Source of the DNA: a virus
Reading direction: 5' to 3' (one strand)
Length of the DNA stretch: 33,650 nt
IMG/VR virus record: IMGVR_UViG_3300017757_005223
Coordinates: 1 to 33,650 of that record
The notes beneath the pieces are model-generated. The model was given only the letters and a program-made list of their open reading frames with translations, was not told where the DNA came from and ran no database searches. Shown here piece after piece: positions 4,523 to 33,650 of this stretch (position 1 is its first letter; the number at the start of each line of letters is the position of its first letter). The position numbers and the translations under genes were made by a program.

Positions 4523-4538
4523 CTAAAAATAAAAAAAA

Positions 4539-4697: not shown

Positions 4698-4706
4698 ATA
4701 AATAAA

Positions 4707-4892: not shown

Positions 4893-4908
4893 ATTAAAAA
4901 CAAAAATT

Positions 4909-5650: not shown

Positions 5651-5694
5651 ATAAGTTATTAGTGAATGAAAAACCACTTAAAAAAATTAACAAT

Positions 5695-6477: not shown

Positions 6478-6604
6478 AGAAGAGGCACTTGAAATATTAG
6501 AGGAAATAGAAGAAAATGTTGGTATATGTTGTGCCGTAACTATGGAACCAGATGAAGTATTAATATTAATTGATAAACTTAAAGAATATATAAAAAATGT
6601 ATAA
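6470..6604 (+). CDS. Small hypothetical protein with GTG start, 44 aa
   Basis: The ORF fills the gap between queE and the thermonuclease-like gene. It starts at GTG 6470, 8 bases inside queE, and overlaps the following start by 8 bases. The product (SKEEALEILEEIEENVG, a CC pair, then PDEVLILIDKLKEYIKNV) looks like two amphipathic helices. There is no known family. It is supported by tight packing on both sides and natural amino-acid composition, but the start is non-ATG and the ORF is short. Confidence 0.4.
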   Translation: MSKEEALEILEEIEENVGICCAVTMEPDEVLILIDKLKEYIKNV

Positions 6605-6938: not shown

Positions 6939-6939
6939 T

Positions 6940-7338: not shown

Positions 7339-7370
7339 TTTGGTTTCCTAATAAAATGTTCGTATATTAA
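7339..7370 (+). promoter_or_regulatory. Repeated promoter motif upstream of folE
   Basis: TTTG at 7339-7342 starts immediately after the PRTase stop, and TATATTAA lies at 7363-7370 with a 20-base spacer. The flanks TTTGGTTTCCT and TTCGTATATT are identical to the 1408 copy. An A-rich leader precedes ATG 7389. Confidence 0.65.
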
Positions 7371-7388
7371 TATAAAATAAAAGTAAAG

Positions 7389-11025: not shown

Positions 11026-11951
11026 AACATTTAGAAGATACTCCGTGGTGGATTTGTGATCCAGGTGACACAAATTACTGTGCTTATGTTGATACAGATT
11101 CTAATTATTTTAATGCAGAACCTTTACTAAGACATTTATATCCTAATTTTGATGAAATGTCAGATTCAGAACGAGATAGTGTTTTAGAAAAAGAAGCACT
11201 CAAATATCAAGATATTATAACTGAAGATTATAATAGATTAGCTCAAGATTGTTTTAATGTTTCTACTCATAGATTAGAAATGAAAACTGAGTGTGTAATC
11301 AGATCAGCTTATTTTAGAGCTACAAGACGTTATGCACAGTGGATTACTAAGCAGGAAGGCATTGAAAATGAAACATTAGATGTAAAAGGGTTAGAATTTA
11401 AGAAAGCTAATTTTCCTCCTGTATTTGGTAAGTTTTTTAAAAGTTGTTTAGAACAAGTACTTAAAGGAGTACCTAAACATGAAATTGATTCTCAATTATT
11501 AGAATTTAGAAGACAGATACTAAGTGGAGAAATACCTTTAGAAAAAATTGGTAATCCCCAAGCAGTAAAAAAATTAAATAAGTTTACTGAACGTAAAGCT
11601 AGAGCTGGGGAAATGTTTTCTTCAATAGGTAAAGGTGCTCCTGCAGCTGTTAAAGCAGCTATAATTTATAATGATTTACTAAGATTTTGGAAATTAGATA
11701 AAAAATATAATTACATTACACAAGGAGAAAAAATTAAATGGATTTATTTAAAAAATAATCCCTATAGAATTGAAGCAATTGCTTTTCTAGACTATGATAT
11801 ACCAAAAGAAATTCGTACATTCATTGAGAAATATGCTGATAGACAAAAAGTATTTGAAAGTATTTTATTAAATAAATTAGAGGGATTTTATAATGATTTA
11901 GGTTGGTCATTAAATTTAAACCCTCATAGAAATAAATTTTTTAATTTTTAA
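11022..11951 (+). CDS. 43: Family B DNA polymerase, C-terminal part (gp43-like, split gene)
   Basis: The 309-aa product supplies the rest of the polymerase. Motif C is YVDTDSNYF (22-30, Asp24 and Asp26 are the metal ligands), the conserved basic segment is RATRRYAQW, a KGLEFKKANFPP stretch follows, and then the thumb domain. It ends in KFFNF, which resembles the clamp-binding tail of T4-type polymerases. Alone it would be inactive, since the exonuclease and motifs A and B are in the upstream chain. The ATG overlaps the upstream stop by 4 bases. The reading frame shifts at the junction, and no inserted sequence remains there. Confidence 0.92.
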   Translation: MKHLEDTPWWICDPGDTNYCAYVDTDSNYFNAEPLLRHLYPNFDEMSDSERDSVLEKEALKYQDIITEDYNRLAQDCFNVSTHRLEMKTECVIRSAYFRATRRYAQWITKQEGIENETLDVKGLEFKKANFPPVFGKFFKSCLEQVLKGVPKHEIDSQLLEFRRQILSGEIPLEKIGNPQAVKKLNKFTERKARAGEMFSSIGKGAPAAVKAAIIYNDLLRFWKLDKKYNYITQGEKIKWIYLKNNPYRIEAIAFLDYDIPKEIRTFIEKYADRQKVFESILLNKLEGFYNDLGWSLNLNPHRNKFFNF

Positions 11952-11952
11952 T

Positions 11953-12330
11953 ATGGCTAAAGATAAACCTGATATGTTTGCTGATAAAAAAGCTATTATG
12001 CCCTATGGGGATAGTGTAGCAGCTCCTAAAATAGATTTACCAAATACTAATGCTTGGGTAACTCAACAATCAATAGATGTTAATAACTATTTGTCTACTA
12101 AATTTATAGAATTAAAGGAAGAATATGCAAAGCTTATATCTTTATACAAATGGAATGAATTAGTTAATAAATCTGAATTTAGTTTTATTCCTATTAAAGG
12201 ACATACCTACTATCTTTATCAAAGAGAAGATGAAAAATTATTTTTATCTTTAATTGAACCTGAATATTGGGATCAATTATTTGTAGGAGAAGTGATTTTA
12301 GACTCAGATAATAAATGGATTAAAAAATAA
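11953..12330 (+). CDS. DUF2452-family protein
   Basis: The 125-aa protein has the look of DUF2452: an opening MPYGDSVAAPKI, a helical middle (VNNYLSTKFIELKEEYAKL) and the C-terminal signature FSFIPIKGHTYYLYQREDEK followed by LSLIEPEYWDQL. The biochemical function of the family is not known to me. The gene lies one base after the polymerase and 5 bases before the clamp, so it is part of the replication operon and could be a replisome accessory protein. The family call rests on recalled motif similarity. Confidence 0.65.
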   Translation: MAKDKPDMFADKKAIMPYGDSVAAPKIDLPNTNAWVTQQSIDVNNYLSTKFIELKEEYAKLISLYKWNELVNKSEFSFIPIKGHTYYLYQREDEKLFLSLIEPEYWDQLFVGEVILDSDNKWIKK

Positions 12331-12335
12331 AAAAA

Positions 12336-13082
12336 ATGATAAATAAATCAAAATTACAATCAATAATATCAAAATATTACTTAAATGGCTTAGTCCAATC
12401 AGTAAGATGGTTAACTGAAAAAAATAAACTAAGTATTAGTTTTACGTCTGAAAATAAAGATATAGCCGGAGATTTAGTATGCGATACATCCCCAGTTGAA
12501 GACAGTGAAATAGCAATATTTGATACAGCACAATTAAATAAATTAATATCAGTTACAAATGGAGAATTATTACTTACTTTAGAAAAAGAACATAAAGTAT
12601 TTTCTAAATTACACATTCAAGATAATTCATTTAATGTAGCTTATTCTTTAGCAGATTCATTATTAGTACCAAAGAGAGGAACTATTAATTTCCCAACTGA
12701 ATATGATGTTATAATAGAATTAACACCTGAAATTGTAAGTAATTTTATTAAAGCTAAAAGTGCATTAACAGACATAAGTGATGTAATGATTAGTACTGAA
12801 GAAGATCCTGATAGAGGAACTATAGTACAATTTGCATTTGGAGATTTAAATAACTTTTCAAATAAAATTAAATATATTGTAGATGAAAATATAACAATAA
12901 ATAAAGAATTAAAATTACCATTCAATTCAGACTCATTTAAAAATATATTAGCAGCAAATAAAGATTTAGAAAGTGGTAAACTTTCATTAACTGAAGAAGG
13001 ATTTATGAAATTAGAATTTCAATCAGAAGATATAAAGACTTTATACTATATGGTAAGAAAAGAAGATGCCACATATGTATAA
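12336..13082 (+). CDS. 45: Sliding clamp, DNA polymerase processivity factor (gp45-like)
   Basis: The 248-aa protein has the size (T4 gp45 is 228 aa) and alternating beta-strand pattern of a clamp subunit. Segments such as SISFTSENKDIAGDLVCDTS, FDTAQLNKLISVTNGELLLTL and KLSLTEEGFMKLEFQSEDIKT are typical of gp45-like proteins. It would form a ring that tethers the polymerase to DNA and, in T4-like phages, also takes part in late transcription. There are no catalytic residues to check. The position after the polymerase and the gp44/gp62-like genes downstream support the call. A 76-base gene-free gap follows. Confidence 0.82.
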   Translation: MINKSKLQSIISKYYLNGLVQSVRWLTEKNKLSISFTSENKDIAGDLVCDTSPVEDSEIAIFDTAQLNKLISVTNGELLLTLEKEHKVFSKLHIQDNSFNVAYSLADSLLVPKRGTINFPTEYDVIIELTPEIVSNFIKAKSALTDISDVMISTEEDPDRGTIVQFAFGDLNNFSNKIKYIVDENITINKELKLPFNSDSFKNILAANKDLESGKLSLTEEGFMKLEFQSEDIKTLYYMVRKEDATYV

Positions 13083-19608: not shown

Positions 19609-21045
19609 ATGAAAGAAGGTTATATTAAAAAAGAAGATAGAAAAAAAATATTATTAATAACTGATGATATTAGGGTACATTCAGGTGTTGCTCAAGTAGG
19701 AAGAGAAATTGTTTTTAATACTTTACATAAATATAATTGGGCCCAAATAGCAGGAGCAGTAGACCACCCAGATAAAGGAAAAATTATTGATCTTGCTGAA
19801 GAGATAAAAACCCAAAAATTAGTAGAAGAAAAAGATCCTTATGTAAGGTTATACCCTACTAAAGGATATGGAAGTATAGATGAATTAAGAGCAATAATAA
19901 AGAATGAAAAACCAGATGCTTTATTTTTAATAACTGATCCTAGATATTTTGCTTGGTTGTTTAATTCTGAGGACCAAATAAGAAATTCAATACCTATAAT
20001 ATATCTTAATATTTGGGATAACTACCCAGCTCCAATGTATAATAAAGAATATTATGAATCTTGTGATTTATTATTAGGAATATCTAAACAAACAGTTAAT
20101 ATTAATAAACTTGTTTTAGGTGATAAAGGTAAAAATAAAATATTCAAATATGTTCCTCATGGGTTAAATGATACTTTATTTAATATATTAGATGATAATT
20201 CTCCTGAATTATTACAATTTAAGAAAAATTTGGGATTACCTGAAGATAATAATTTTCATTTAGTTTTTAATTCAAGAAATATAAGAAGAAAACAACCTTC
20301 TAATATCATAATGGCATGGAAATTATTTACAGAACAATTATCTCCAAAAGAAGCTAAAAAATGCCAATTAACATTAAAAACAGAAGCATCATTTGACCAT
20401 GGTACAGATCTAACAGCTGTAATTGAATATATGTGTCCTCCTGAAACTTGTAGAGTAGGGGTATTACAACATAAATTATCAACTCAGGAAATGAATTTAC
20501 TATATAATTCAGCAGATGGTGTAATACAAATATCAAATGCTGAAGGTTGGGGATTATCTTTAACTGAATCTATGTTAACAGGAACACCCTTTATAGCAGT
20601 AGTTACTGGGGGAATGCAAGATCAAATGAGATTTGAAGATGAAAATGGAGATTGGATTGAATTCAATGATGAATTTCCTTCTAATCATAAAGGAAAATAC
20701 AAAAAGCATGGTGAATGGGCGTTACCTGTTTACACTAAAGCAAGTACCCTAGTAGGCTCTCCACAAACCCCTTATATATATGATGATCACCATGATATTA
20801 ATGATGTAGCTGAACAAATTATGAAATTATATAAGATGGGTAAGGAAAAAAGGAAATCTATTGGTAAAAAAGGATATGATTGGGCTAAAGGAGATGAAGC
20901 TGGATTTACATCTAAAAAAATGGCAAATAGAGTTATAGAAGGAATAGAACAATTATTTTCAACATGGAAACCTAGAGAAAAATATGAATTCCTTAAAGAT
21001 ACAGATTATGAAAAAAGAGTTTTACCACATAAATTAATATATTAA
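19609..21045 (+). CDS. Glycosyltransferase, GT-B fold (GT4-like)
   Basis: The 478-aa protein opens with ILLITDDIRVHSGVAQVGRE, the N-terminal Rossmann strand and glycine loop of GT4 enzymes. A donor-binding half follows, with the signature NAEGWGLSLTESMLTGTPFI (around residues 308-327; Glu and Gly-rich EX7E-type region). A retaining transfer from a nucleotide sugar is expected; donor and acceptor are unknown. No signal peptide or membrane helix is seen, so it should be cytoplasmic. It is the first enzyme of the glycan block, with another GT-B gene one base after its stop. Confidence 0.85.
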   Translation: MKEGYIKKEDRKKILLITDDIRVHSGVAQVGREIVFNTLHKYNWAQIAGAVDHPDKGKIIDLAEEIKTQKLVEEKDPYVRLYPTKGYGSIDELRAIIKNEKPDALFLITDPRYFAWLFNSEDQIRNSIPIIYLNIWDNYPAPMYNKEYYESCDLLLGISKQTVNINKLVLGDKGKNKIFKYVPHGLNDTLFNILDDNSPELLQFKKNLGLPEDNNFHLVFNSRNIRRKQPSNIIMAWKLFTEQLSPKEAKKCQLTLKTEASFDHGTDLTAVIEYMCPPETCRVGVLQHKLSTQEMNLLYNSADGVIQISNAEGWGLSLTESMLTGTPFIAVVTGGMQDQMRFEDENGDWIEFNDEFPSNHKGKYKKHGEWALPVYTKASTLVGSPQTPYIYDDHHDINDVAEQIMKLYKMGKEKRKSIGKKGYDWAKGDEAGFTSKKMANRVIEGIEQLFSTWKPREKYEFLKDTDYEKRVLPHKLIY

Positions 21046-21046
21046 T

Positions 21047-22375
21047 ATGAAAAATACATTTGTTATAAGTTGTCCAATTGATACTTACAGTGGATATGGA
21101 GCAAGATCAAGAGATTTAGTTAAATCAATAATAGAATTAGGTAAATATGATGTTAAAATCCTACCTCAAAGATGGGGTAGTACTTCTTTTGGGTTTATTG
21201 ATAATAATCCTGAATGGAAATTTTTACAAAAACATATTACATTACAAATGACATCTCAACCTGATATTTGGGCACAAATCACTGTACCTAATGAATTCCA
21301 ACCTATTGGGAAGTTTAATATAGGATTTACAGCAGGAATTGAAACAACATTATGTTCTGCTCCTTGGATTGAAGGTATGAATAAAATGAATTTAAATATT
21401 GTTTCATCTGAACATTCTAAACAAGTATTTTTAAATTCTAAATTTGATAAGTTAGATCAAAAGACAAACCAGAAAATAGGAGAAATTAAAATTGAAAAAC
21501 CCATAGAAGTATTATTAGAGGGGGCTGATTTAGATACTTATAAACCTATTAAAAGTTCTGAATTTAAAGAATTAAATTTATTAAAGGATATTAATTCTAT
21601 TCCTGAAGATTTTGCTTTTTTAGCTGTAGGGCATTGGATGCAAGGTAGTTTAGGTGAAGATAGAAAAAATATGGGTGTTACTGTTAAATCTTTTTATGAT
21701 ACATTTAAAAATAAAAGGAAAAAACCAGCATTAATTTTAAAAACATCTTCAGTAAATTCTTCTTATATAGATAGAAGAGAAATAATGAGAAGAATTGATA
21801 TAATACGTAGTAGTTGTGGTAAAAATTTACCTACTATTTATCTTTTACATGGTAATTTTACTAACCAAGAAATGAATGAATTATATAACCATCCTAAAGT
21901 AAAAGCTATGGTTTCTCATACTAGAGGAGAAGGATTTGGTAGACCTTTATTAGAATTTTCTTTAGTAAATAAACCAATAATTTGTTCTGGATGGTCTGGC
22001 CAATTAGATTTTCTCAAAAACGATTTTACTTTATTACTTCAAGGAACATTAACTAATCTCCACCCATCAGCTCAACAAAAAGATATATTACTTGCTGAAT
22101 CTCAATGGTTTCAACCTAATATAATGGAAATAAATAAATCATATAAGGAGATATATAATAACTATAAATTTTGGTTAGAACAATCAAAAAGGCAAGGATA
22201 CTATAGTAGAACTTATTTTGCTTTTGAAAATATGAAAGCTAAAATATCATCAATATTAGAAGACAATATTAATATTCCCGAACAAGTAAAGTTATCATTA
22301 CCTAAACTAAAAAAGGTAGGAAATAATAAAAACTTATCACCAAAATTAAAATTACCTAAATTAAAAAAAGTATAA
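21047..22375 (+). CDS. Glycosyltransferase, GT-B fold (GT4-like), with PKLKKV repeats at the tail
   Basis: The 442-aa protein begins FVISCPIDTYSGYGARSRDL and has HTRGEGFGRPLLEFSLVNKP (about 291-310), the donor-binding signature of GT4. The last 30 residues hold two copies of LPKLKKV with a PKLK between, a basic Pro-Lys repeat that is not part of the catalytic fold and may mediate binding to nucleic acid or to another protein. It follows the first GT-B gene by one base. The sugar donor cannot be deduced. Confidence 0.82.
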   Translation: MKNTFVISCPIDTYSGYGARSRDLVKSIIELGKYDVKILPQRWGSTSFGFIDNNPEWKFLQKHITLQMTSQPDIWAQITVPNEFQPIGKFNIGFTAGIETTLCSAPWIEGMNKMNLNIVSSEHSKQVFLNSKFDKLDQKTNQKIGEIKIEKPIEVLLEGADLDTYKPIKSSEFKELNLLKDINSIPEDFAFLAVGHWMQGSLGEDRKNMGVTVKSFYDTFKNKRKKPALILKTSSVNSSYIDRREIMRRIDIIRSSCGKNLPTIYLLHGNFTNQEMNELYNHPKVKAMVSHTRGEGFGRPLLEFSLVNKPIICSGWSGQLDFLKNDFTLLLQGTLTNLHPSAQQKDILLAESQWFQPNIMEINKSYKEIYNNYKFWLEQSKRQGYYSRTYFAFENMKAKISSILEDNINIPEQVKLSLPKLKKVGNNKNLSPKLKLPKLKKV

Positions 22376-22378
22376 AAT

Positions 22379-22846
22379 ATGCAGTATGATGAAATTATAG
22401 ATTGCCCTAAAAGTGGGGGAGATTTATGTTATAAAATGGAGATTAATGAAGATATAACTAATTATTTTAGTTTATCGTGTGGTTTTTGGACTAATACTTT
22501 AATGACCCCGGGATCAGAATTTTATGAAGAACAATTTGCATCCCTCCCTGAATTATATAAAGATTTGGCTTGGACAGATCCAAAAACAGGACTAGTATGG
22601 ATACCTAATACCATAAATGAACCAGAGTTAGGAATGGTATTTGTAAATGGTGGAACTATTGACAATTGGACATGGACAGCTACAAAAGCTATTGAAGTTA
22701 AAGAAGAAGAAAAGTTAAAATTCCCAATCCCTGGCAAACCAGGTGAATATTATAAACATAGAATGGATATGGAAAATTTAAAATCTTTTGATAGAGAACG
22801 TGGGTATATAGATGCTCTTTCGTATATTGGAATATTACCTGAATAA
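22379..22846 (+). CDS. Conserved-looking hypothetical protein, 155 aa
   Basis: The product reads DCPKSGGDLCYKMEINEDIT with a SLSCGFWTN segment and later WIPNTINEPELGMVFVNG, FPIPGKPGEYYKHRMDM. Cysteines at about positions 9, 17 and 34 could bind a metal. I recall similar proteins in marine T4-like phages, annotated only as hypothetical. There is no enzyme motif. It sits between glycosyltransferase genes but looks unlike them. Confidence 0.65.
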   Translation: MQYDEIIDCPKSGGDLCYKMEINEDITNYFSLSCGFWTNTLMTPGSEFYEEQFASLPELYKDLAWTDPKTGLVWIPNTINEPELGMVFVNGGTIDNWTWTATKAIEVKEEEKLKFPIPGKPGEYYKHRMDMENLKSFDRERGYIDALSYIGILPE

Positions 22847-22854
22847 ATAAAAAA

Positions 22855-23484
22855 ATGAAAATAAGTTACGCAATAACAGTATGTAATGAACATAAAGAAA
22901 TAGATAAATTATTAACGTTTTTATTCGAACATAAAAGACCAGAGGATCAAGTTGTGGTTCAAATGGATAAGGATAATGTTACTCAAGAAGTAATTAATGT
23001 ATGTGAAAGATTTGAAGGTAAAAAAGCCAATGAATATAGTTTACTTCAATTTAGTCTTAATAAGAACTTTGCATCATATAAAAATAATCTTAATAGAAGC
23101 TGTACTGGCGATTGGATATTTCAAATTGATGCTGATGAAATACCAAATGAATATTTAATAGAGGCATTACCCTTTATATTAGAAGCAAATGAAGATACAG
23201 AAGCATTTTGGGTACCAAGAGTGAATACAGTTGCTGGTATAACAGATGCACATATTGCTAAATGGGGGTGGAGAGTAGATGATCAAGGATGGGTAAATTT
23301 TCCAGATTGGCAAATGAGAATATATCAAAATAATGAAGATATTTATTGGGTAAAGCCAGTTCATGAACAATTAAGGGGCTATACTAAATTTGCTAACTTA
23401 CCAGCTGAAGAAAAATATGCTTTATATCACCCAAAAAATATTGGTAGACAAGAAAGGCAAAATGCGTTTTATGACACAATCTAA
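22855..23484 (+). CDS. Glycosyltransferase family 2-like (GT-A fold)
   Basis: The 209-aa protein has the GT2 opening ISYAITVCNEHKEIDKLL, a DQVVVQMDKDN strand and the metal-binding DADE motif (92-95) in GDWIFQIDADEIPNE. A HPKNIGRQERQN tail follows. It is short for GT2, so it may transfer a single sugar or act with partners. It uses a nucleotide sugar with divalent metal. It overlaps the next glycosyltransferase by 14 bases. Confidence 0.8.
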   Translation: MKISYAITVCNEHKEIDKLLTFLFEHKRPEDQVVVQMDKDNVTQEVINVCERFEGKKANEYSLLQFSLNKNFASYKNNLNRSCTGDWIFQIDADEIPNEYLIEALPFILEANEDTEAFWVPRVNTVAGITDAHIAKWGWRVDDQGWVNFPDWQMRIYQNNEDIYWVKPVHEQLRGYTKFANLPAEEKYALYHPKNIGRQERQNAFYDTI

Positions 23485-24232
23485 TAAGTTTTTAATTATA
23501 ATGCCGTGTTATAATGTAGAAAAGTGGGTAAAATTAAATCTACTAACTACTATACATCAATCTTATAAAAATTTTAGATGTATTATTATAGATGATGGGT
23601 CTACTGATAACACTCAAAATATTATAGAATCAACTATTAAAGTAGATGATAGATTTGAATATATTAGAAATTCAAAAAGAACAGGTAGTTCTTTAAAAAA
23701 TTATTATAACGCTTTTCATAAATCAAAACCAGACCCAAATGAAATAGTGGTATGGTTAGATGGAGATGATTGGTTTTCTTCAGTATTTGTTTTACAATAT
23801 TTAGACCAATTTTATAACAGTACTAACTGTTGGATGACATATGGGACTTATCAAATGTTTCCCACAGGGCAAGATGGATCACACCATTGTATAGAGATAC
23901 CAAATGAAATTCACCAAAATAGAGCATACAGAAATTGGATGCATGTTTATTCTCATTTAAGAACACATAGAGCGTTTTTATTTTATAATTTTAAAGAATC
24001 AGATTTAATAGATTCTAGGTCTAATAAATTCTATACTGAAGCTACAGATTGTGCTTATTTATTTTCATTAGCTGAAATGTGTAGTTCTTCTGAAAAAATT
24101 AAATTAATAGATGATATTTTATTAGTTTTAAATAGATCTAACCCAAACCAAGCAGCAGGAAATTTAGAAAAACAAAAATCAACTGAAGCGCATATAAGAA
24201 CTCTTCCAAAATTTGATAAATATGAAATTTAA
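23471..24232 (+). CDS. Glycosyltransferase family 2 (GT-A fold)
   Basis: The 253-aa protein has classic GT2 motifs: FLIIMPCYNVEKWVKLNLL near the start, CIIIDDGSTDNTQNII (DDGSTD) and VVWLDGDDWFSS (the DxD metal site). ATG 23471 is chosen; ATG 23462 is 9 bases upstream and equally possible, and both lie inside the previous gene. It would transfer a sugar from a nucleotide donor, usually with inversion. It is tightly linked to the GT-A gene upstream and to the three-domain protein downstream (11-base overlap). Confidence 0.85.
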   Translation: MTQSNKFLIIMPCYNVEKWVKLNLLTTIHQSYKNFRCIIIDDGSTDNTQNIIESTIKVDDRFEYIRNSKRTGSSLKNYYNAFHKSKPDPNEIVVWLDGDDWFSSVFVLQYLDQFYNSTNCWMTYGTYQMFPTGQDGSHHCIEIPNEIHQNRAYRNWMHVYSHLRTHRAFLFYNFKESDLIDSRSNKFYTEATDCAYLFSLAEMCSSSEKIKLIDDILLVLNRSNPNQAAGNLEKQKSTEAHIRTLPKFDKYEI

Positions 24233-26510
24233 TATAGTTACATATATAAAACCATCTGATACTCCTGGTGATTTTAGTATGTTTGCAACTTCACTTATTA
24301 ATGTACAAAAATCTCAATATTTAAATAAATTAATTATATCTTTCGTAGATGAGTTATCTGATAATTTTAAAAAAGAATTAGATAAATATAAAAATATTAT
24401 TTGGAAAGATAATGTAGACGAATATTGGGCCCAAGAGATAAAAACATTGATAAATCAAAACCCTTCAGATTATTATTATATTTGGGAAGAAGATTCACAT
24501 ATTTTTGATATTAAAGAATTTGATAATTCTTTTAAATCTATGGTTGAGAATAGTGTAGAATGTTTAATAACTCAAGATCTTAAGTGGATTAAAAGAGCTG
24601 AACATTTACTAAATAATGAGTTTGCAATTGATAGAGGTAATCACTTAATTTTTAATTGGGGAACATATTATGCTAAGTATTGTAGAGAAAGTTCAAATGA
24701 TAGTTTAGTAAATGGAGCATATCCTGTGACTGTATCTAGTATTTTTACTAAAAAATTATTATTATCTTTATTAGATAATTTTATGTCTTCTACACATTGG
24801 GTAGAAATTACTAAAGGAAATTTTTCTCATTACCATAATAATCCTAAAATTCCTCATAGTTTTGAAGTTTACCCTGGATTTTGGTGGGAAGGAGGACCAA
24901 ATAGGGGTTGTGGGGAAGTTGAGTATATTACTATGGTATCAAAAACTCAATTTGCTGAGGAATTAGGAGAAAGATTAATAGATAAATTAAGAAAAGATAC
25001 TATTAACATTGTTGGTTATGATGATTGGTACACAGAGAAACCTTGGTGTAGAGAAGAAATTAATAATAAGGAATTTAAAATAACTTATAATCAAAACTCT
25101 ACAGATTTAACTTATTTTATAAAAGATGGAATATATAAGGCAAAAGAAATAACAAATCCAAAAACTAAAGTAGCCCTACTAACAGAATGTAGAATAATGG
25201 ATCCTGTAAGATATAAATTTGTTGAAGATAACCATAATTTATTTGATTATATTGTAACATATGATGATCAATTAATTAGTAAATTTAAAGAAAAAGTTAT
25301 AATAACTCCTTATGGGGGAACATGGGTATGGCCTAAAGAAGTTCAAAAAGTTTTATCAAAATCTAAAATTTGCTCCTACATAACTTCTAATAAAACTTAT
25401 ACAGTAGATCAAAAAATGAGAATTAGTTTACTTAATTATTATCAAAATAACCCACACAATAATATTGAACTATTTGGTAGAGGACACAATCCACTCCCAG
25501 AAAACCATGAAGCAGGGGATTATGATGGTAAAGTAATTGCTTTAAAAGATTATGCATTTTCTTTAGTGATAGAAAACCATGTACAAGATAATTATTTTTC
25601 AGAAAAACTATTAGACTGTCTTTTAACTGGAACTATTCCTATATATCATGGTTGTAAAAAGATATCAGAATATTTTAACATGGATGGATTTATTTTATTT
25701 GATACTGAAGAAGAAGTTAAAAATATAATTAAAAATCTAAGTATAGAAAAATATAATAAAAAAATAAATGCAGTAAAAGAAAATTATAAAATTGCTAAAA
25801 AATATAGAGATTCTGTACAGTTTTCATTTAATAAAATCAAGAAAAAAATAGAAAATAATTCCACAGAAATAGTTAATCTTAGTAGCTCAGACCCAAAAAC
25901 AACAGTTGATGGTTATATACAAGATTATTGGTTAAACCAATTTTTTACTAAAGGTGGAGATCATTCTCATTTATATACTTTTGATTTAAATGAAGATTCT
26001 ATTGTTTTTGATGTTGGAGCTTTTGAAGGAGAATATTTTACTAAAATATATGATAAATATAAATGTAATATACATGCTTTTGAACCTGTAACTTCTTTTG
26101 TTGAAAAATATAAAAATACAACAAACCCTAAAATTATAGTTAATGGTTTTGCATTAGGTGATTCTACTGAAGATTTTGAAATTGTTGTAGATGATAATTC
26201 TTCATCTCAGTTTATAAAGGGTGATAATACAATAAAATGTAAAAAAGTTAAATTTAGAGAATATATAAATTCCCAAAAATTAAAAAATATAGACTTAATA
26301 AAATTAAATATTGAAGGAGCTGAATATGAATTACTGGAAGAAATTATCGACTCAGAATTTCAAGATAAAATTGATGGGTTTTTAATTCAATTCCATTATT
26401 TATCTCATACCCCTATTAAAAGAAGAGAAAAAATTATTAATAAATTAAAAGAAACACATGAACCTGTGTTTTATTATCCTTTTGTATGGGAATACTGGAA
26501 GAAAAAATAA
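24222..26510 (+). CDS. Three-domain protein: GT-A-like, GT10 fucosyltransferase-like, FkbM methyltransferase
   Basis: The 762-aa protein appears to fuse three parts. Residues 1-280 look like a glycosyltransferase-A domain with an acidic YYYIWEEDSHIF motif (about 84-95). The middle (about 310-540) has the GT10 alpha-1,3-fucosyltransferase signature, FSLVIENHVQDNYFSEKLLD (445-464), then TGTIPIYHG. The C-terminal third (about 590-740) is an FkbM-type methyltransferase with IVFDVGAFEGEY (about 593-604) and LIKLNIEGAEYELLEE. It could add a sugar, add fucose or a related deoxysugar, and O-methylate the product. ATG 24222 is preferred over TTG 24213. The domain limits are estimates. Confidence 0.75.
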   Translation: MKFNIVTYIKPSDTPGDFSMFATSLINVQKSQYLNKLIISFVDELSDNFKKELDKYKNIIWKDNVDEYWAQEIKTLINQNPSDYYYIWEEDSHIFDIKEFDNSFKSMVENSVECLITQDLKWIKRAEHLLNNEFAIDRGNHLIFNWGTYYAKYCRESSNDSLVNGAYPVTVSSIFTKKLLLSLLDNFMSSTHWVEITKGNFSHYHNNPKIPHSFEVYPGFWWEGGPNRGCGEVEYITMVSKTQFAEELGERLIDKLRKDTINIVGYDDWYTEKPWCREEINNKEFKITYNQNSTDLTYFIKDGIYKAKEITNPKTKVALLTECRIMDPVRYKFVEDNHNLFDYIVTYDDQLISKFKEKVIITPYGGTWVWPKEVQKVLSKSKICSYITSNKTYTVDQKMRISLLNYYQNNPHNNIELFGRGHNPLPENHEAGDYDGKVIALKDYAFSLVIENHVQDNYFSEKLLDCLLTGTIPIYHGCKKISEYFNMDGFILFDTEEEVKNIIKNLSIEKYNKKINAVKENYKIAKKYRDSVQFSFNKIKKKIENNSTEIVNLSSSDPKTTVDGYIQDYWLNQFFTKGGDHSHLYTFDLNEDSIVFDVGAFEGEYFTKIYDKYKCNIHAFEPVTSFVEKYKNTTNPKIIVNGFALGDSTEDFEIVVDDNSSSQFIKGDNTIKCKKVKFREYINSQKLKNIDLIKLNIEGAEYELLEEIIDSEFQDKIDGFLIQFHYLSHTPIKRREKIINKLKETHEPVFYYPFVWEYWKKK

Positions 26511-26512
26511 TT

Positions 26513-27130
26513 ATGGCTTATAAAATATTTAATAATAATAAAAAATATGTTTATGTTCATATTCCTAAAACAGGGGGAACAACTATAGAACATATATTTG
26601 GTTTAGGAAAAGTAGCAATGGGAAAAATAGTAGGACATATAACATTAAAAGATATAAAAAATTTAATGGATGATTATGAAAAATATATATCATTTACTAC
26701 AGTAAGAAATCCTTGGAGTTGGTATGTATCTTGGTATTTTTATCTACAACAGAGAGGAGGAAGAGACCCTGATTTCATACCAGAATTTGAAAATATTGAA
26801 AAAAAAGGTAATACCTTTAATGATTTTATAAGATTTATATATGATAATAGAGATACTCTATCATTTGATAAGGGAGATAATAAAATTTTAAAATACCAAC
26901 AAATGTTAGAATGGGGGTATGACGGTAAAAAATATGTAGACCATTTTATAAAAATCGAAGAACTATCAGAGGAAAAATTAAGGGAAATTGGTTTATATGT
27001 AAAGTATACTCATATGAAAAAAAACCAATCCAAACATGACCATTATTCTACTTATTATACTGATGAAGCAAGAGAAAGGGTAAGAAACATGCATAAAGAT
27101 GATATTAAATATTTTAATTATGAATTTTAA
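26513..27130 (+). CDS. Sulfotransferase (Sulfotransfer_2-like)
   Basis: The 205-aa protein has the 5'-PAPS-binding loop VHIPKTGGTTIE (15-26) and the 3'-phosphate-binding segment FTTVRNPWSWYVSWY (61-75). Such enzymes move sulfate from PAPS to a sugar hydroxyl. ATG 26513, 2 bases after the previous stop, is chosen because the domain begins there; an earlier in-frame ATG at 26486 lies in the neighbouring gene. There is no membrane segment, unlike Golgi enzymes. Its place behind a glycosyltransferase fusion suggests it decorates the same glycan. Confidence 0.83.
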   Translation: MAYKIFNNNKKYVYVHIPKTGGTTIEHIFGLGKVAMGKIVGHITLKDIKNLMDDYEKYISFTTVRNPWSWYVSWYFYLQQRGGRDPDFIPEFENIEKKGNTFNDFIRFIYDNRDTLSFDKGDNKILKYQQMLEWGYDGKKYVDHFIKIEELSEEKLREIGLYVKYTHMKKNQSKHDHYSTYYTDEARERVRNMHKDDIKYFNYEF

Positions 27131-27156
27131 TACTATTCACCAACACTATACTAAAA

Positions 27157-27576
27157 ATGAAAAAAATATACTCAAAGGTACAAGAAAATAAATTATTACA
27201 TATAATAAATAGACTGTCAGATATTGAAGGAAGAAAAGATATAGTTTCTGAAGAAAATTTTATTCAATGTGCTACTTTAAAAATGGAAAAAGGAAAAACA
27301 TTTCCACCACATAAACATATAACTAAAGATAGACATTATCCTGAACAAATTGCTCAAGAATCTTGGGTAGTAATTAGAGGAAAAGTAAAGTGTAAATTTT
27401 ATGATTTAGATGATACAATAATTGCAGAACCTATTTTAGAAGCTGGTGATGCAAGTTTTACTTTATATGGTGGTCATACTTATGAAATTTTAGAAGATGA
27501 CACTATAGTATATGAGTATAAAACTGGACCTTATGAAGGTCAAAAACTAGACAAAGAATTTTTAAATAATAATTAA
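27157..27576 (+). CDS. Cupin-fold protein
   Basis: The 139-aa protein has a single cupin domain. The first motif is FPPHKH (49-54) with QESWVVIRGKV (67-77) and Glu68, and the second is AGDASFTLYGGHTYEIL (96-112) with His107. These His/Glu positions bind a metal. In glycan clusters cupins are often sugar epimerases, ketoisomerases or WbuC-like proteins; the motifs do not decide which. It follows the sulfotransferase after a 26-base gap. Confidence 0.75.
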   Translation: MKKIYSKVQENKLLHIINRLSDIEGRKDIVSEENFIQCATLKMEKGKTFPPHKHITKDRHYPEQIAQESWVVIRGKVKCKFYDLDDTIIAEPILEAGDASFTLYGGHTYEILEDDTIVYEYKTGPYEGQKLDKEFLNNN

Positions 27577-27578
27577 TT

Positions 27579-28118
27579 ATGGTAAAAATAAATTTAGGAT
27601 GTGGTTGGAGAGATTTTGGTAAAGATTGGATCCACATAGATGGTGGAGATTATGATCATTTAGATTCTCGTGATATTGTTAATCTACCTTTTAAAGATAA
27701 TTCCGTTGACTTAATATATGCAAGTCATGTTATTGAATATTTTGATAGGGTAGAAATTATTGAGGTTTTAAATAAATGGAAATCAAAGTTAAAATCTGGG
27801 GGTACGTTAAGATTAGCTGTACCCGATTTTGAAGCTATGGCAAAACTATACATAGAAAAAAATATACCTTTAAATAATTTTTTAGGACCCCTTTATGGAA
27901 AAATGAAAATGGGAAAAGATTTTATATTTCATAAAACTACTTATGATTTTGATAGTTTAAAAGAATTATTAAATGAGGTTGGATTTCGTAACATGGATTA
28001 TTATCTTTGGCAAGAAACTGAGCATGGTATTTTTGATGACCATTCTCAAGCTTACATCCCACATATGGATAAAGAAAATGGTACTTTAATTAGTCTAAAT
28101 ATAGAAGTTAAAAAATGA
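27579..28118 (+). CDS. SAM-dependent methyltransferase, class I
   Basis: The 179-aa protein has the SAM-binding motif KINLGCGWRDFGKDWIHIDG (3-22), then VDLIYASHVIEYF (43-55, motif around the acidic post-strand loop) and LKSGGTLRLAVPDFEAM. It is like the Methyltransf_11 proteins found in polysaccharide clusters. It is probably cytoplasmic and methylates a sugar or a small molecule. The stop overlaps the next ATG by 4 bases. Confidence 0.82.
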   Translation: MVKINLGCGWRDFGKDWIHIDGGDYDHLDSRDIVNLPFKDNSVDLIYASHVIEYFDRVEIIEVLNKWKSKLKSGGTLRLAVPDFEAMAKLYIEKNIPLNNFLGPLYGKMKMGKDFIFHKTTYDFDSLKELLNEVGFRNMDYYLWQETEHGIFDDHSQAYIPHMDKENGTLISLNIEVKK

Positions 28119-28738
28119 GTTTTGAAAGTATAAAAACATTTGAAAATAAAATAGCAAAGTTTTTTGGTGCCCCTTACGCTGTTGCAGTTGATTGTTGCAC
28201 ACATGGTATTGAATTATGTTTAAGACATGAACATGTAAGCTCAATTAAAGTCCCTAAAAGAACTTATATATCAATACCATTTTTAGCAGCAAAGTTAAAT
28301 ATGTTTTTAGAATTTAAAGATGAAAATTGGAAAGATTATTATTATTTAACTGATAATATAATTGATGCAGCTGTATTATGGGAAAAAAATAGTTATATCC
28401 CTGGTACCTTTATGTGTGTAAGTTTTCAATTCAGAAAACATTTGGCTTTAGGTAGAGGGGGTATTATATTAACAGATAATAAACAAACAGCAATTAAATT
28501 AAAAAAAATGTCATATGATGGTAGACATCCCGACATACCTTGGAGAGAACAAAATATAGATACTATGGGTTACCACTATTATATGACTCCAGAAACTGCT
28601 GAATTAGGTTTAAAAAAACTACCAGATGCAATTAAAACTAAACCAATACAATGGACAATAAATGATTGGCCAGATGTATCTCAAATGAAAATATTTAATA
28701 ATATAGAAGGAGTAGATCCTTACTTACAAACAAAATAA
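28115..28738 (+). CDS. Miniature DegT/DnrJ/EryC1-type aminotransferase
   Basis: The protein has the PLP-site motif SFQFRKHLALGRGGIILT (103-120), with Lys108 in the position of the Schiff-base lysine, and IIDAA (82-86) with Asp84 for the PLP ring nitrogen. The N-terminus (FENKIAKFFGAPYAVAVD) also fits. Members are normally 360-400 residues, so at 207 aa this one lacks much of the middle and most of the small domain; no frameshift is visible. It may be an active compact form or a decayed one. DegT enzymes aminate 4-keto sugars, and GMD just downstream makes such a product, so a GDP-4-amino sugar is a plausible output. Confidence 0.78.
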   Translation: MSFESIKTFENKIAKFFGAPYAVAVDCCTHGIELCLRHEHVSSIKVPKRTYISIPFLAAKLNMFLEFKDENWKDYYYLTDNIIDAAVLWEKNSYIPGTFMCVSFQFRKHLALGRGGIILTDNKQTAIKLKKMSYDGRHPDIPWREQNIDTMGYHYYMTPETAELGLKKLPDAIKTKPIQWTINDWPDVSQMKIFNNIEGVDPYLQTK

Positions 28739-28741
28739 AAC

Positions 28742-29719
28742 ATGAAAAAAGCATTTATTACAGGAATAGGAGGACAAGATGGAAGTTATTTAGCAGAATA
28801 TTTAGTTGAATTAGGATATGAAGTTCATGGTATTGTTAGAAGAAATTCAACACCAGAAAATCAAGATCTTAGACTGGCTAACATAGAAGATAAAGTTTCA
28901 ACATATTATGGAGATTTATTAGATCAAGGAGGATTAGAAAGATTATTAGATGATATACAACCTGATGAAATTTATAATATAGCAGCACAATCTCACGTAA
29001 GAATTAGTTTTGATATACCCCAATTTACAGTTCAAACAAATGCATTAGGAGTTCTCAATATGTTAGAGGCATATAGACGTTCATGTCCTAAAGCTAAATT
29101 TTATCAAGCAAGTAGTTCTGAAATGTTTGGTTTATCAGTTGATGATGATAATTTCCAGAGAGAAACTACAGTAATGAATCCAGTATCTCCTTATGGGTGT
29201 TCTAAAGTATTTGGTTATAATATTGTAAGAAATTATAGACGTGCTTATGGGTTACATGCTACAAATGGTATATTATTTAATCATGAATCTCCTAGAAGAG
29301 GATCTAATTTTGTAACTAATAAAGTTGCTAAAGCAGCTGCTAGAATTAAGCTTGGATTACAAGATAAATTAGAATTGGGTAATGTAGATTCTTACAGAGA
29401 TTGGGGCCATTCGTATGATTATGTAAGAGCAATGCATTTAATGATGCAACATGATAAACCCGGTGATTGGGTAGTATCTACTATGGAAACCCATTCAGTA
29501 AGAGAAATGTGTGATGTAGTATTTAGCCATTTAGGTTTAGATTATAAAGACTATATTGAGCAAAATCCAAAGTTTATGAGACCTGAAGAATTACCATATT
29601 TAAAAGGTGATTCTACTAAAATTAGAACAGAATTAGGTTGGAAACCAACTTATACATTTGAATCAATGATGGAAGAAATGACCGACCATTGGTTAGAGTA
29701 TTTTAAAAAAACACTATGA
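28742..29719 (+). CDS. gmd: GDP-mannose 4,6-dehydratase
   Basis: GMD makes GDP-4-keto-6-deoxymannose, the branch point to GDP-fucose, GDP-perosamine and GDP-colitose. The 325-aa protein has the NAD(P)-binding GIGGQDGSYLAEYL (8-21), the catalytic YGCSK (151-155, Tyr and Lys), ASSSEMFG and NHESPRRGSNFVT, all typical of this enzyme. The length is normal. It starts 3 bases after the aminotransferase, so amination of its product is likely. No clear fucose synthase (GMER) gene is in the window, although the SDR at 30606 could act on the same substrate. Confidence 0.93.
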   Translation: MKKAFITGIGGQDGSYLAEYLVELGYEVHGIVRRNSTPENQDLRLANIEDKVSTYYGDLLDQGGLERLLDDIQPDEIYNIAAQSHVRISFDIPQFTVQTNALGVLNMLEAYRRSCPKAKFYQASSSEMFGLSVDDDNFQRETTVMNPVSPYGCSKVFGYNIVRNYRRAYGLHATNGILFNHESPRRGSNFVTNKVAKAAARIKLGLQDKLELGNVDSYRDWGHSYDYVRAMHLMMQHDKPGDWVVSTMETHSVREMCDVVFSHLGLDYKDYIEQNPKFMRPEELPYLKGDSTKIRTELGWKPTYTFESMMEEMTDHWLEYFKKTL

Positions 29720-30609
29720 GAATAGCATTTTTTACTGAAGGAGGATATCAGGGTAAAATTTCTAGAGATAATCCTAATATGCGTACAGATTTAGCTTGGA
29801 TTTGCTCCTTAAAAGCTGATCATTGGAATATAAATTCATTACCTAACCAACAATATGATTTAGGAATTATTATTATACCTAAAAATAATCCACAATTTGA
29901 TTTAAATAGATTAAAACAATATTGTAGTAAAATAGCTGTAATGCAAGAAGGCCCTAATTGGTATTGGCAAGATTATTCTCTTCCCCAACAAATTTGGTAT
30001 TTTAATACTATACAGGAAGCAGATTTTATGTTTGTTCATAATAAATCCGATCAAAAATATTATGAAGGTTTAACAGGTAAAGAATGTAAAATTTTATCTA
30101 GTTTAATGATTGAAGATTCAATTAATGTTTTACCCCAAATAGAGAGAAAAGATATTATTATAGGAGGTAATTTTTGTAGTTGGTATGGAGGATTTGATTC
30201 ATATATTGTAGCACAAGAAGCAGATTGCCCTATTTATATTCCTAGTATGGGGAGAAAAATTGAAGGTGAAGAACAAATGGAAAATATAAATCATTTACCT
30301 TATATGAATTGGGTAGAATGGATTAAAACACTTAATAGTTTTAAATATGGTGTTCATTTAATGCGTACACATGCTGCAGGTACATTTGCTTTAAACTGTG
30401 CTTATTTAGGTATTCCTTGTATTGGATATGAAGGATTAGACACACAGGAAGTATGTCATCCCTATTTAACAGTTAAATTAGGAGATTTATCTACAGCAAA
30501 AGAAAAACTTACACAACTTAAAGAAGACAAACAATGGTATGATAAATGTTCTCAAACAGCAAAAGAACAGTATCAAAAACATTATCACGAATCAAAATTC
30601 AAAATATGA
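29716..30609 (+). CDS. Putative glycosyltransferase (GT-B-like)
   Basis: The 297-aa protein begins RIAFFTEGGYQGKISRDNPN and has a helix-strand pattern with VHLMRTHAAGTFALNCAYLG (around 213-232) and GIPCIGYEGL near the donor site. It resembles GT-B proteins in marine phage glycan clusters, but the usual EX7E motif is not clear. The start overlaps the GMD stop by 4 bases, and its stop overlaps the next ATG by 4 bases. The sugar is unknown. Confidence 0.65.
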   Translation: MRIAFFTEGGYQGKISRDNPNMRTDLAWICSLKADHWNINSLPNQQYDLGIIIIPKNNPQFDLNRLKQYCSKIAVMQEGPNWYWQDYSLPQQIWYFNTIQEADFMFVHNKSDQKYYEGLTGKECKILSSLMIEDSINVLPQIERKDIIIGGNFCSWYGGFDSYIVAQEADCPIYIPSMGRKIEGEEQMENINHLPYMNWVEWIKTLNSFKYGVHLMRTHAAGTFALNCAYLGIPCIGYEGLDTQEVCHPYLTVKLGDLSTAKEKLTQLKEDKQWYDKCSQTAKEQYQKHYHESKFKI

Positions 30610-31466
30610 AGATATTAGTAACGGGAGGAGCTGGATTTGTAGGAACTAACCTTGTTAAAAGGTTATTAAAAGATAAACACGAAGTAGTATCAATAGATAA
30701 TTATAATACTGGTTTAAAATCTAACCATCAAGAAGGATGTAAATACAGAAACTTTGATATAATAAATTTTAATACTAATAGTTTTATTGATCCTGTACTT
30801 TCTTATAAACCAGATTTAATATTTCATTTAGCAGCAATAGCTAGAATACAACCGTCATTTCAAAATCCTCAACAATATATAAATACTAATTTTCAAGGTA
30901 CATACGAAATAGTAAAATACTGTACAGAAAAAAACATACCTTTAATATATGCAGGTTCGTCTTCAAAACATAGTGGGAGATACAAAAACCCATATACTTT
31001 TAGTAAAGATTTAGGAGAAGATATAATTGAATTATATAAAATACATTATGGTTTAAAAGCTTCAATAACTCGTTTTTATAATGTTTATGGTCCATATCAA
31101 TTAACAGAAGGTGGTTACACTACTTTAATTGGTAGATGGTTAAATAACATTAAAAATTCAATACAATGTGAAATTTATGGTGATGGAGAACAACGAAGAG
31201 ATTTTACCCATGTAGATGATATTATAGATGCTTTAATTTTAATTATGGAAAAGAAAAAATATGGGTTGGAATTCGAACTTGGAAGAGGTAAAAATCATTC
31301 GGTAAATGAAGTTGCAAAGATGATGGATATAAATCCTATATATAAAGATGCAAAACCTGGAGAAGCAAGACATACTCTAAACACAGATAATAGAGCCTAT
31401 GAAATATTAAACTGGGAGCCAAAAATAAATTTAGAAGATTATTTAAAAAATTTAAAAAATGGATAA
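30606..31466 (+). CDS. NAD-dependent nucleotide-sugar epimerase/dehydratase (GalE/WbpP-like SDR)
   Basis: The 286-aa protein has the NAD-binding MKILVTGGAGFVGTNLVKRL (1-20), the catalytic YTFSK (130-134, Tyr and Lys) with the upstream SSSK, and RFYNVYGPYQ and RDFTHVDDII, typical of extended SDRs acting on nucleotide sugars. ATG 30606 overlaps the previous stop. The opening fits UDP-hexose 4-epimerases better than GMER, but the substrate is uncertain. It overlaps the final glycosyltransferase by 8 bases. Confidence 0.88.
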   Translation: MKILVTGGAGFVGTNLVKRLLKDKHEVVSIDNYNTGLKSNHQEGCKYRNFDIINFNTNSFIDPVLSYKPDLIFHLAAIARIQPSFQNPQQYINTNFQGTYEIVKYCTEKNIPLIYAGSSSKHSGRYKNPYTFSKDLGEDIIELYKIHYGLKASITRFYNVYGPYQLTEGGYTTLIGRWLNNIKNSIQCEIYGDGEQRRDFTHVDDIIDALILIMEKKKYGLEFELGRGKNHSVNEVAKMMDINPIYKDAKPGEARHTLNTDNRAYEILNWEPKINLEDYLKNLKNG

Positions 31467-32529
31467 AAAAATTACATTTGTAATACCAAGTAGAAACAAT
31501 TTAGAGTTCTTACAATTAGCATATAAATCAATTAGAAATTTAGAAACACAACATGAAATATTAGTATTAAATGATGCTAGTACTGATGGAACACAAGAAT
31601 GGATTAACAATTTAGGCGATAAAGATTTAATAGTCCACCATAACCCAGGACCAGATCGTATTGGTATAGTAGGTATGTTTGATAAAGGAATTGAAATGGC
31701 AAGAACAGAAATTATAATGGCTTTTCATTCAGATATGGTAGCAGCACCTGACTTAGATAAACATATTTTAAAACATCTTAAAAGAGGTACTGTTGTAAGT
31801 GCAACACGTGTAGAACCTCCATTACATCCAGATGGACCTGAAAAAATGTTAGTTGATTTTGGAGTTGAAGTTGAAGATTTTGATATAGATAAATTTAATA
31901 ATTGGGTTAATAACGAATATAAACCTAAACATGGTACATTAGTTACTGAAGGTATATTTGCACCTTGGTGTATGTATAGAGAAGATTTTTTAGCTATAGG
32001 GGGACATGATGAATTATTTGCCCCACAAAGTAAAGAAGATAGTGATATATTTAATCGTTTTATTTTAAAGGGTTATAAAATATTACAAACATGGGAAGGT
32101 TTAGTTTATCATTTTACAAGTAGAGGAAGTAGATTTAATAAACATGCTGGAGGAGGCCCAGGTCAAAACTCTCAAGAATGGATAAATACTACTACTACTA
32201 ATATGAAAAAATTCATAAAAAAATGGGGTACAACAGTACAACATGACCAATTTATGAAACCAATAATATCTCCTGTTTATAAAAGAAGTTTTAATATTAT
32301 AAATTCCAATCCCCAGATTGAAGAAGCATTAGAACCTTGGTCTAATGGTGGAAAAGATATTATTATTACAGTTGATGGTAATAATTTTACTCAACAAGAT
32401 TTTCAAATATTAACACAATTAAATGATATTATTAAAGATAGTGGTGAAATAGGAGAATTTGAATTAGGTAATTTAAAAATATCAATAAATAAAATTAAAG
32501 ATTATGTTAATGAGTTAATTAATGTGTAA
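31459..32529 (+). CDS. Glycosyltransferase family 2 (GT-A fold)
   Basis: The 356-aa protein has KITFVIPSRNNLEFLQLAYK at the start, ILVLNDASTDGTQEW (34-48) and the metal-site AFHSDM (88-93), then GGHDELFAPQSKEDSDIFNR, the typical GT2 catalytic loop with acidic residues. About 80 C-terminal residues (DIIITVDGNNFTQQDFQ onward) form an extra domain not needed for catalysis. It is the last enzyme of the glycan block, followed by a 33-base gap. Confidence 0.85.
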   Translation: MDKKITFVIPSRNNLEFLQLAYKSIRNLETQHEILVLNDASTDGTQEWINNLGDKDLIVHHNPGPDRIGIVGMFDKGIEMARTEIIMAFHSDMVAAPDLDKHILKHLKRGTVVSATRVEPPLHPDGPEKMLVDFGVEVEDFDIDKFNNWVNNEYKPKHGTLVTEGIFAPWCMYREDFLAIGGHDELFAPQSKEDSDIFNRFILKGYKILQTWEGLVYHFTSRGSRFNKHAGGGPGQNSQEWINTTTTNMKKFIKKWGTTVQHDQFMKPIISPVYKRSFNIINSNPQIEEALEPWSNGGKDIIITVDGNNFTQQDFQILTQLNDIIKDSGEIGEFELGNLKISINKIKDYVNELINV

Positions 32530-32562: not shown

Positions 32563-32880
32563 ATGGAGAAAGAAATTAAAAAGAAAAAAATTACAAGTAT
32601 TGAAATAAGTTATAGTAATAAAAGAGAATTAAAAGAATTATCAAATAAAGAAGCATTTCGTAACATTATAATGAGAAATTCTTTTAAAGCAATTAAGGAA
32701 GCAATTAAAAATGATAAAACAACAGTAGAACTATTTAATATAGTAAATTTATCTGTAATAATAAAACTATCATATTTGTACTACCCATCAGCATTAAAAA
32801 AGATAAGTAATTATTTTGAAGAATATGAAGAATATGAAAAATGTGCTGAAATAAAACAACTAATAAATAAAATAAAATAA
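32563..32880 (+). CDS. Hypothetical helical protein, 105 aa
   Basis: This small, very Lys- and Glu-rich protein begins KEIKKKKITSIEISYSNKRE and ends with a helical run (KISNYFEEYEEYEKCAEIKQ). It looks helical throughout. There is no signal or membrane segment. The stop shares its last base with the start of the Omp28-like gene, so the two are probably co-translated. No function is recognised. Confidence 0.6.
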   Translation: MEKEIKKKKITSIEISYSNKRELKELSNKEAFRNIIMRNSFKAIKEAIKNDKTTVELFNIVNLSVIIKLSYLYYPSALKKISNYFEEYEEYEKCAEIKQLINKIK

Positions 32881-33650
32881 TGAAAAATATAAATAAATCA
32901 AAAGGTTACTTTATAGTAACTGTATTTTGGATAGCAGTACTAACCTTTTGTTCACTAAAAACCCAAGCACAAACTTTTGTAAGTACACTACCAGAAAATA
33001 AAAATGTAATACTTGAAGAATTTACAGGTATTTATTGTCAATTTTGCCCTGATGGACATTTAATAGCACAAAATTTACATAATACTAACCCAAATGATGT
33101 ATTCTTAATTAATATACACACTGGTGGTTATTCTAACCCAAATGGACCTAATGATCCTGATTTTAACTGTTTATATGGGGGTGCTATAGCTACAAATGCT
33201 AATATAGCTGGTTACCCAGCTGGCTCAGTTAATAGAGCAATACTTTCAGGAATTACACCACAAAATCCTGGAGGAACAGCAATGAGTAGAAGTGATTGGG
33301 CTACAGCTGCAAGTAATATTATGTCACAACCATCTTATGTAAATGTAGCTGCACAAGCAAGTTATGATATGGTAACTGGTATTTTAACAGTAAATACTGA
33401 AACTTATTATACTTCAACTACTACTAATATAAATGTGTTACACGTAGCAGTAGTACAAAATAATGTAGCAGGTCCTCAAACAGGTGCTTTATCATATAAC
33501 CCAAATGCAATAATTACAGGACCTTGGAATCCAACTTACAATCACCAACATATGTTTAGACATTTAATGGATGGTGCTAATGGTCTAGAATTTAATGTTA
33601 CAACTGCAGGTACTTTTGTACCAAATACGCATACATGGCAAATGCCTACA
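32880..33650 (+). CDS. Omp28-like secreted protein with signal peptide (3' truncated by window edge)
   Basis: The frame is open from ATG 32880 to the edge of the window (257 codons). It starts with a Sec-type signal peptide: basic NINKSK, hydrophobic YFIVTVFWIAVLTF (10-23) and a likely cleavage after TQA (residue 30). The mature part begins with VILEEFTGIYCQFCPDGH (43-60), the thioredoxin-like opening of Omp28-related proteins of Bacteroidetes, with a CQFC (53-56) redox-like pair, then IAGYPAGSVNR. It would be exported to the periplasm or surface, unusual for a phage non-lysis protein. It follows the glycan block and could be a host-acquired surface protein or a receptor-modifying factor. Confidence 0.78.
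   Translation, partial: MKNINKSKGYFIVTVFWIAVLTFCSLKTQAQTFVSTLPENKNVILEEFTGIYCQFCPDGHLIAQNLHNTNPNDVFLINIHTGGYSNPNGPNDPDFNCLYGGAIATNANIAGYPAGSVNRAILSGITPQNPGGTAMSRSDWATAASNIMSQPSYVNVAAQASYDMVTGILTVNTETYYTSTTTNINVLHVAVVQNNVAGPQTGALSYNPNAIITGPWNPTYNHQHMFRHLMDGANGLEFNVTTAGTFVPNTHTWQMPT

Follow-up and report, generated by a model that had tools for sequence, protein, structure and literature searches.

Why a phage should carry a gene for a secreted, Omp28-like protein, and where that protein would go, is the question raised by the last open reading frame (ORF) of IMG/VR record IMGVR_UViG_3300017757_005223. The window, that is, the whole stretch of DNA analysed, is the entire record of 33,650 bases. 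The first 257 codons of a phage Omp28/thioredoxin-like secreted protein lie at 32880..33650 on its plus strand, identified from the ORF, from Pfam and NCBIfam searches and from a full-length counterpart at L005:10001-11857. The ORF starts at an ATG that shares bases with the upstream stop (TAATG) and is interrupted, at 257 aa, by the contig end at 33650. Its product is almost certainly an exported Omp28/thioredoxin-fold protein from a host lineage. On balance, it is best explained as host-derived cargo of the Omp28/HBP35 type, which would be sent via the host type IX secretion system (T9SS) to the surface of the infected cell.

The gene and its setting

The complete gene has about 618 codons, the remainder lying beyond the contig. 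The preliminary description had placed the 3' part outside the window, as is the case, and the C-terminal portion was recovered from three sister contigs (L003, L004 and L005). These match the 257 residues of the window at 100% as reported, with L005 differing at N235K. The full gene in L005 has 618 codons, and the full proteins of the sister contigs range from 606 to 619 aa. Six full-length phage copies can be aligned end to end.

Directly upstream is a cytoplasmic-looking ORF of 105 aa (32563..32880, plus strand) that overlaps the Omp28-like gene by 1 base in the TAATG; the overlap is 4 bases in L007 and L009. No family match to the 105-aa ORF was found in profile searches of Pfam, PHROG and NCBIfam. 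A block of glycosyltransferase-like, sugar-nucleotide, methyltransferase and sulfotransferase-like ORFs (19609..32529, plus strand) stops just 5' of the Omp28-like gene. The block was read from ORF translations, with an HMM match for its last member only (31459-32529), which contains PF00535 at E=4.8e-16 (31459-32526).

PHROG matches in the window include a split DNA polymerase B, a clamp loader, a ligase, an exonuclease and GroEL. Those in G004, a syntenic 84-kb contig, include tail sheath, tail tube and a UvsX-like recombinase. These gene contents support a contractile-tailed, T4-like phage as the probable source of the window.

Domains of the full-length protein

From its N-terminus, the protein consists of a signal peptide, a thioredoxin-like domain, an Omp28 domain, two beta domains, a Cys-containing stretch and, at the C-terminus, a short tail (...NKIYDILGREYKSKVGELKNGLYIIDNIKVIINK). 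The signal peptide, the Omp28-type mature sequence and the CxxC that had been described from the window are all present. Residues 1-31 (32880..32972, plus strand) form a predicted Sec signal peptide, MKNINKSKGYFIVTVFWIAVLTFCSLKTQAQ, which ends in AQ. The N-terminus of the L005 protein, identical to that of the window, is positive by a rough signal-peptide rule, a home-made hydrophobicity rule. A thioredoxin-type CxxC active site, CQFC (C53-C56; 33036..33047, plus strand), was located by alignment and stands at a helix start in the AlphaFold2 model. A GYP (residues 111-113; 33210..33218, plus strand), again located by alignment, would be the cis-Pro loop of the thioredoxin fold.

The Pfam search placed Omp28 (PF11551) at residues 106-254 (33195..33641, plus strand). 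The window fragment matches at E=1.9e-10 and 41.3 bits, over the curated cut-off of 34.9 bits, and full-length relatives score 42.5, 37.1 and 36.4 bits. The NCBIfam model for Omp28 lipoproteins, NF033782, gave E=5.8e-21 and 74.9 bits, under its cut-off of 150 bits. The phage protein therefore resembles the Omp28 family (PF11551; structure 2R2C) in its above-cut-off Pfam match and its core fold, but differs from it in having no lipobox by inspection and in falling below the NF033782 cut-off.

A sequence search of solved structures gave a best E of only 0.06, with HBP35 among the weak matches, so a fold search was needed. The AlphaFold2 model of the full-length protein has a mean pLDDT of 82 and a pTM of 0.62, and in it a helix (56-69) comes after the CxxC. 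Its top PDB match in Foldseek is HBP35 of Porphyromonas gingivalis (5Y1A, E=6e-10). A compact relative from the phage contig L020 (334 aa, model pLDDT 77) matches HBP35 at E=2e-12 across 330 columns and Omp28 2R2C at E=2.7e-5. With CxxC at a helix start and a cis-Pro loop, the protein is assigned a thioredoxin fold from sequence and model; its redox activity is putative.

The thioredoxin activity of HBP35 is dependent on its CxxC (PMC2907840). HBP35 is exported by the T9SS, and its final 22 residues send GFP to the surface (PMC3120885). Like HBP35, the phage protein starts with a thioredoxin domain that bears CxxC; its C-terminus would be a T9SS element comparable to that of HBP35, in which the last residues hold the signal. 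It differs in being only 14-17% identical, in having two extra beta domains and a contracted tail, and in being phage-encoded. Hemin binding and thioredoxin activity, known for HBP35, are putative in the phage protein.

Among 26 aligned phage and host proteins, all 26 keep both CxxC and GYP. Such full conservation would suit a thiol oxidoreductase that stays inside, in the periplasm or at the outer membrane, where it would fold or reduce Cys-rich phage envelope proteins and where the tail would be a decayed sorting domain. This alternative is rather unlikely, for reasons that lie in the tail and in the neighbouring genes.

The domains also bear on whether the protein could be a virion component, a tail or fibre adhesin with an incidental Omp28-like domain, as had been considered in the preliminary description. 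Ig-like beta domains are frequent in phage virions, and viral Ig-domain proteins were among the weak matches in Foldseek. The best folds are, however, those of the bacterial HBP35 and Omp28, and no PHROG match, to a tail family or otherwise, was found for the protein; the outcome named as refuting Omp28 kinship, a phage tail protein unrelated to Omp28, is thus absent. The gene is not part of the structural block but is found past the sugar genes, and a host relative has the same layout with a T9SS domain. The adhesin idea is weak because both the Sec signal peptide and a C-terminal tail of host type indicate the cell envelope as the destination, and a place in the virion is very improbable.

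Host relatives and origin

Relatives were scanned in one genome per species, and the best 80 of 312 were retained. The closest among these 80 come from MAGs and single-cell genomes of marine Flavobacteriales (L028-L033 and L036), at 62-73% identity over the best segment. The nearest Flavobacteriales relatives have the same layout and are 67-73% identical to the phage protein. The host proteins of L029, L030 and L031 share the layout up to the tail, at 67-70% identity, but have a complete sorting domain (scored with TIGR04183 in L030), whereas the phage version has only a short tail. The L030 gene is near sprA, encoding the T9SS outer-membrane translocon (TIGR04189, 1418 bits), and beside ordinary chromosomal ORFs such as, by inspection, ruvA-like and tlpA-like ones.

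In a maximum-likelihood tree, nine long phage proteins group with seven marine Flavobacteriales proteins (100/100), other Flavobacteriales being outside. This nesting, and nearest cellular relatives that are Flavobacteriales, support the gene transfer from the host that had been suggested. The root is a midpoint root and the support for the phage clade is only 86/94, so the host-to-phage direction is the simplest reading rather than a proof. The short forms L019 and L020 are placed away from the nine long forms, and the starred branches of the tree force at least two changes. A single origin of all phage copies is unsupported by the tree.

Copies in other phages

Eight viral loci with an Omp28-like gene were found in a first scan. 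At least ten other viral contigs carry one, set between conserved phage genes. More distant phage copies are present in L019, L020, L021 and L193. A tblastn search of 50,697 GenBank phage records with the fragment and the full protein as queries gave no match. The upstream 105-aa gene and downstream genes of 133 and 207 aa are shared by L005, L007, L009 and L010. Pairwise dN/dS values (NG86) between phage copies are 0.18-0.47, a range that indicates, at the level of sequence comparison, that the gene is under purifying selection.

These results bear on the alternative that a host gene was captured recently and is carried as a functionless passenger, or that an assembly chimera is involved. An identity of about 70% to host proteins means that the transfer is not very ancient, which would agree with a recent capture. 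Against it, the same flanking genes recur in independently assembled contigs, dN/dS is below 0.5, and the gene is carried by two phage groups (with the long and the short form) rather than one clade. The constant neighbours and the dN/dS values speak against an assembly accident, and the passenger reading as a whole is scarcely credible.

The C-terminal tail

Host relatives with a complete C-terminus mostly finish in recognisable T9SS sorting domains, that of L030 scoring 37.1 bits with TIGR04183. The phage tail occupies the same place but is shorter, without the YPNP half of the sorting domain. TIGR04183 gave no match to the tails of the phage Omp28-like proteins even at E=10, and the phage protein is therefore not filed as a TIGR04183 protein. 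A check for a C-terminal sorting or adhesion domain had been proposed; it turned up a sorting-type tail where the host sorting domain sits, but not a match to the curated model.

With an HMM built for the host sorting domain, the L005 tail ranks third of 333 phage ORF tails, behind two full sorting domains. It scores 13.2-13.6 bits against at most 12.0 in 2,100 shuffles, a thin margin by itself. The tails of L007, L009, L010, L019, L020 and L027 score 6-11 bits, within the shuffle range (best shuffle 12.0). Host data provide independent support for the tail. Of 148 genomes from the host order, 29 contain matches at E<=0.001 to a profile built from the phage tails (A4), and each of these 29 is 0.9-2.0 Mb in size. 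Flanks were recovered for 40 host ORFs, in which the tail is 0-22 residues before the stop. By the signal-peptide rule, 37 of these 40 tail-bearing ORFs are positive, compared with 12 of 34 ORFs next to them (p=1.6e-7, Fisher test). In the model of the phage protein, the tail forms a C-terminal hairpin (605-609 and 612-616) of low to moderate confidence.

The proposal is that the phage tail represents a T9SS type A sorting domain in contracted form, which may act as a working signal. Counting against this, in RgpB the beta3-beta4 loop is required as well, and so is a folded domain (PMC11285876). The Sec signal peptide seen in the sequence and the A4 tail at the C-termini of exported host proteins speak for such a signal, while the low confidence of the hairpin and the thin shuffle margin weaken the case. 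T9SS delivery of the phage protein is quite likely. The tail also speaks to the thiol oxidoreductase alternative. Its failure to match the curated T9SS model would fit a decayed domain; however, distant phages (L019, L020, L193 and, via L110, the L021 record) have retained it while the middle domains vary, and the host tail is restricted to the C-termini of exported proteins.

At host loci L147-L186, a contracted T9SS-like tail of about 45 residues closes exported proteins of marine Flavobacteriales with small genomes. This host tail has at least two flavours, GxYIxNxKKxI and PLFYIYDDGTVEKKIIIE. The NCBIfam T9SS models miss it in L111, the one host protein scored.

Other putatively exported proteins of these phages

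G004, G012 (L020) and G013 encode repeat proteins that have full TIGR04183 domains and are 997, 763 and about 1,151 aa long, respectively. PF18962 is also found in those of G004 and G012, and TIGR04183 scores 51.6 and 37.0 bits in repeat proteins of related phages. These proteins, with GCTDxxAxNYxxxAxxDDGSC repeats, a signal peptide and a full T9SS type A domain, are at L024:10913-13906, L020:8953-11244 and in L114 (minus strand, 1151 aa).

A small secreted family of 170-187 aa has a signal peptide and a contracted tail (L109:842-1351; L114, minus strand, 187 aa; L193:2103-2621; L198:5980-6483). The L109 member has no Pfam or NCBIfam match. In L193, the gene of this family is directly 3' of the Omp28 gene. 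The signal peptide of the window protein and that of the 187-aa L114 protein are identical at 22 of 32 positions (counted to one residue past the signal peptide) and the mature proteins are unrelated, which suggests that signal peptides are exchanged between phage proteins.

The gene order in L020 is an outer-membrane-like protein, a nuclease-like ORF, a small membrane ORF, a secreted thioredoxin-like protein without CxxC, Omp28 and the repeat protein. G004 and G013 have a similar cluster without the Omp28 gene, which is after the sugar-gene block in G004 and elsewhere in the G013 record. Secreted thioredoxin-like proteins in which the active-site Cys residues are replaced (e.g. AEWNDPN) adjoin T9SS cargo genes at L020:7539-7865, at L024:10489-10902 and in L114 (minus strand, 121 aa). 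An internal thiol oxidoreductase would find possible substrates in the Cys-rich repeat protein that adjoins the Omp28 gene in L020 and in the Cys-containing second secreted protein of L193. The secreted thioredoxin-like neighbours without CxxC count against that alternative, since with them it is not obvious that the cluster forms a disulfide system.

Proposed export to the infected-cell surface

For the preferred reading, export through the host T9SS, the predicted Sec signal peptide would take the phage protein to the periplasm. The contracted tail would then be read by the host T9SS (the SprA translocon and its partners) and the outer membrane crossed, as the tail, the host homologues and the related cargo indicate. 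The protein would be displayed or released at the surface of the infected cell during infection; type A domains allow anchoring or release (PMC12618676). With the sugar-gene block and the other secreted proteins, it could remodel the infected-cell surface, for example blocking the adsorption of competing phages, by a thiol-redox or ligand-binding activity. That surface remodelling is the benefit to the phage has a somewhat less than even chance of being correct, and the polysaccharide-gene block of the window fits a phage that remodels its host's surface. The benefit that seems most plausible is superinfection exclusion; redox or nutrient-binding roles are less probable.

A more tentative and rather doubtful extension is a surface-coating programme of marine T4-like phages. 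Several unrelated secreted proteins (Omp28/thioredoxin-like, 170-187-aa and Cys-rich repeat), each with a T9SS domain or contracted tail and with exchangeable signal peptides, would together with the sugar block re-coat the cell via the host T9SS. The contracted tail would then be a minimal T9SS signal, as yet undescribed, of a kind that is typical of marine Flavobacteriales with streamlined genomes.

Phage T9SS cargo is already known. Gene products of Cryophage have host T9SS sorting domains (Bellas et al. 2020, PMC7468147), and its authors propose that the host T9SS is used for competition or superinfection control (PMC7468147). Cryophage and the present phages are alike in encoding proteins with T9SS sorting domains of host type. 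The Cryophage cargo is an endoglucanase, a glycoside hydrolase and a PA14 protein, encoded in variable islands of a cryoconite phage, whereas here the proposed cargo is a thioredoxin-fold Omp28 protein with a contracted tail, encoded among stable neighbours in marine T4-like phages. The cargo type, the phage type, the stable neighbourhood and the contracted tail are what is new. In the open-access literature, Cryophage is the sole report found of phage-encoded T9SS cargo and no paper among those listed ties the Omp28 family to a phage, which is in both cases weak evidence of absence.

If the preferred reading is true, these phages exploit the T9SS, a system confined to Bacteroidota and related phyla, to export proteins that alter the infected-cell surface, and superinfection exclusion in abundant bacteria of the ocean would have a route that can be tested. 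It would also mean that a short sorting signal has been overlooked by curated T9SS models, so that current counts of T9SS-secreted proteins in streamlined marine Flavobacteriales may be too low.

Other features of the window and related records

The T4-type late promoter TATAAATA has 8 matches against 15.6 expected by chance, and is therefore uninformative. DNA polymerase B is split over two ORFs (559 and 309 aa) with a 4-base overlap at 9346-11951. The identical split in G004 (L025:10149-11825 and 11822-12751) indicates that this is not a sequencing error. One further record, L027 (CAJQJC010000069.1), is filed under a Candidatus Pelagibacter MAG and looks like a misbinned flavobacterial phage fragment; it was handled as such because of its phage-like neighbour genes. 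At 3655-8087, the window has QueC-, QueD- and QueE-like ORFs and a FolE-like GTP cyclohydrolase, a queuosine-type set by translation, which suggests that the phage may have 7-deazaguanine DNA modification.
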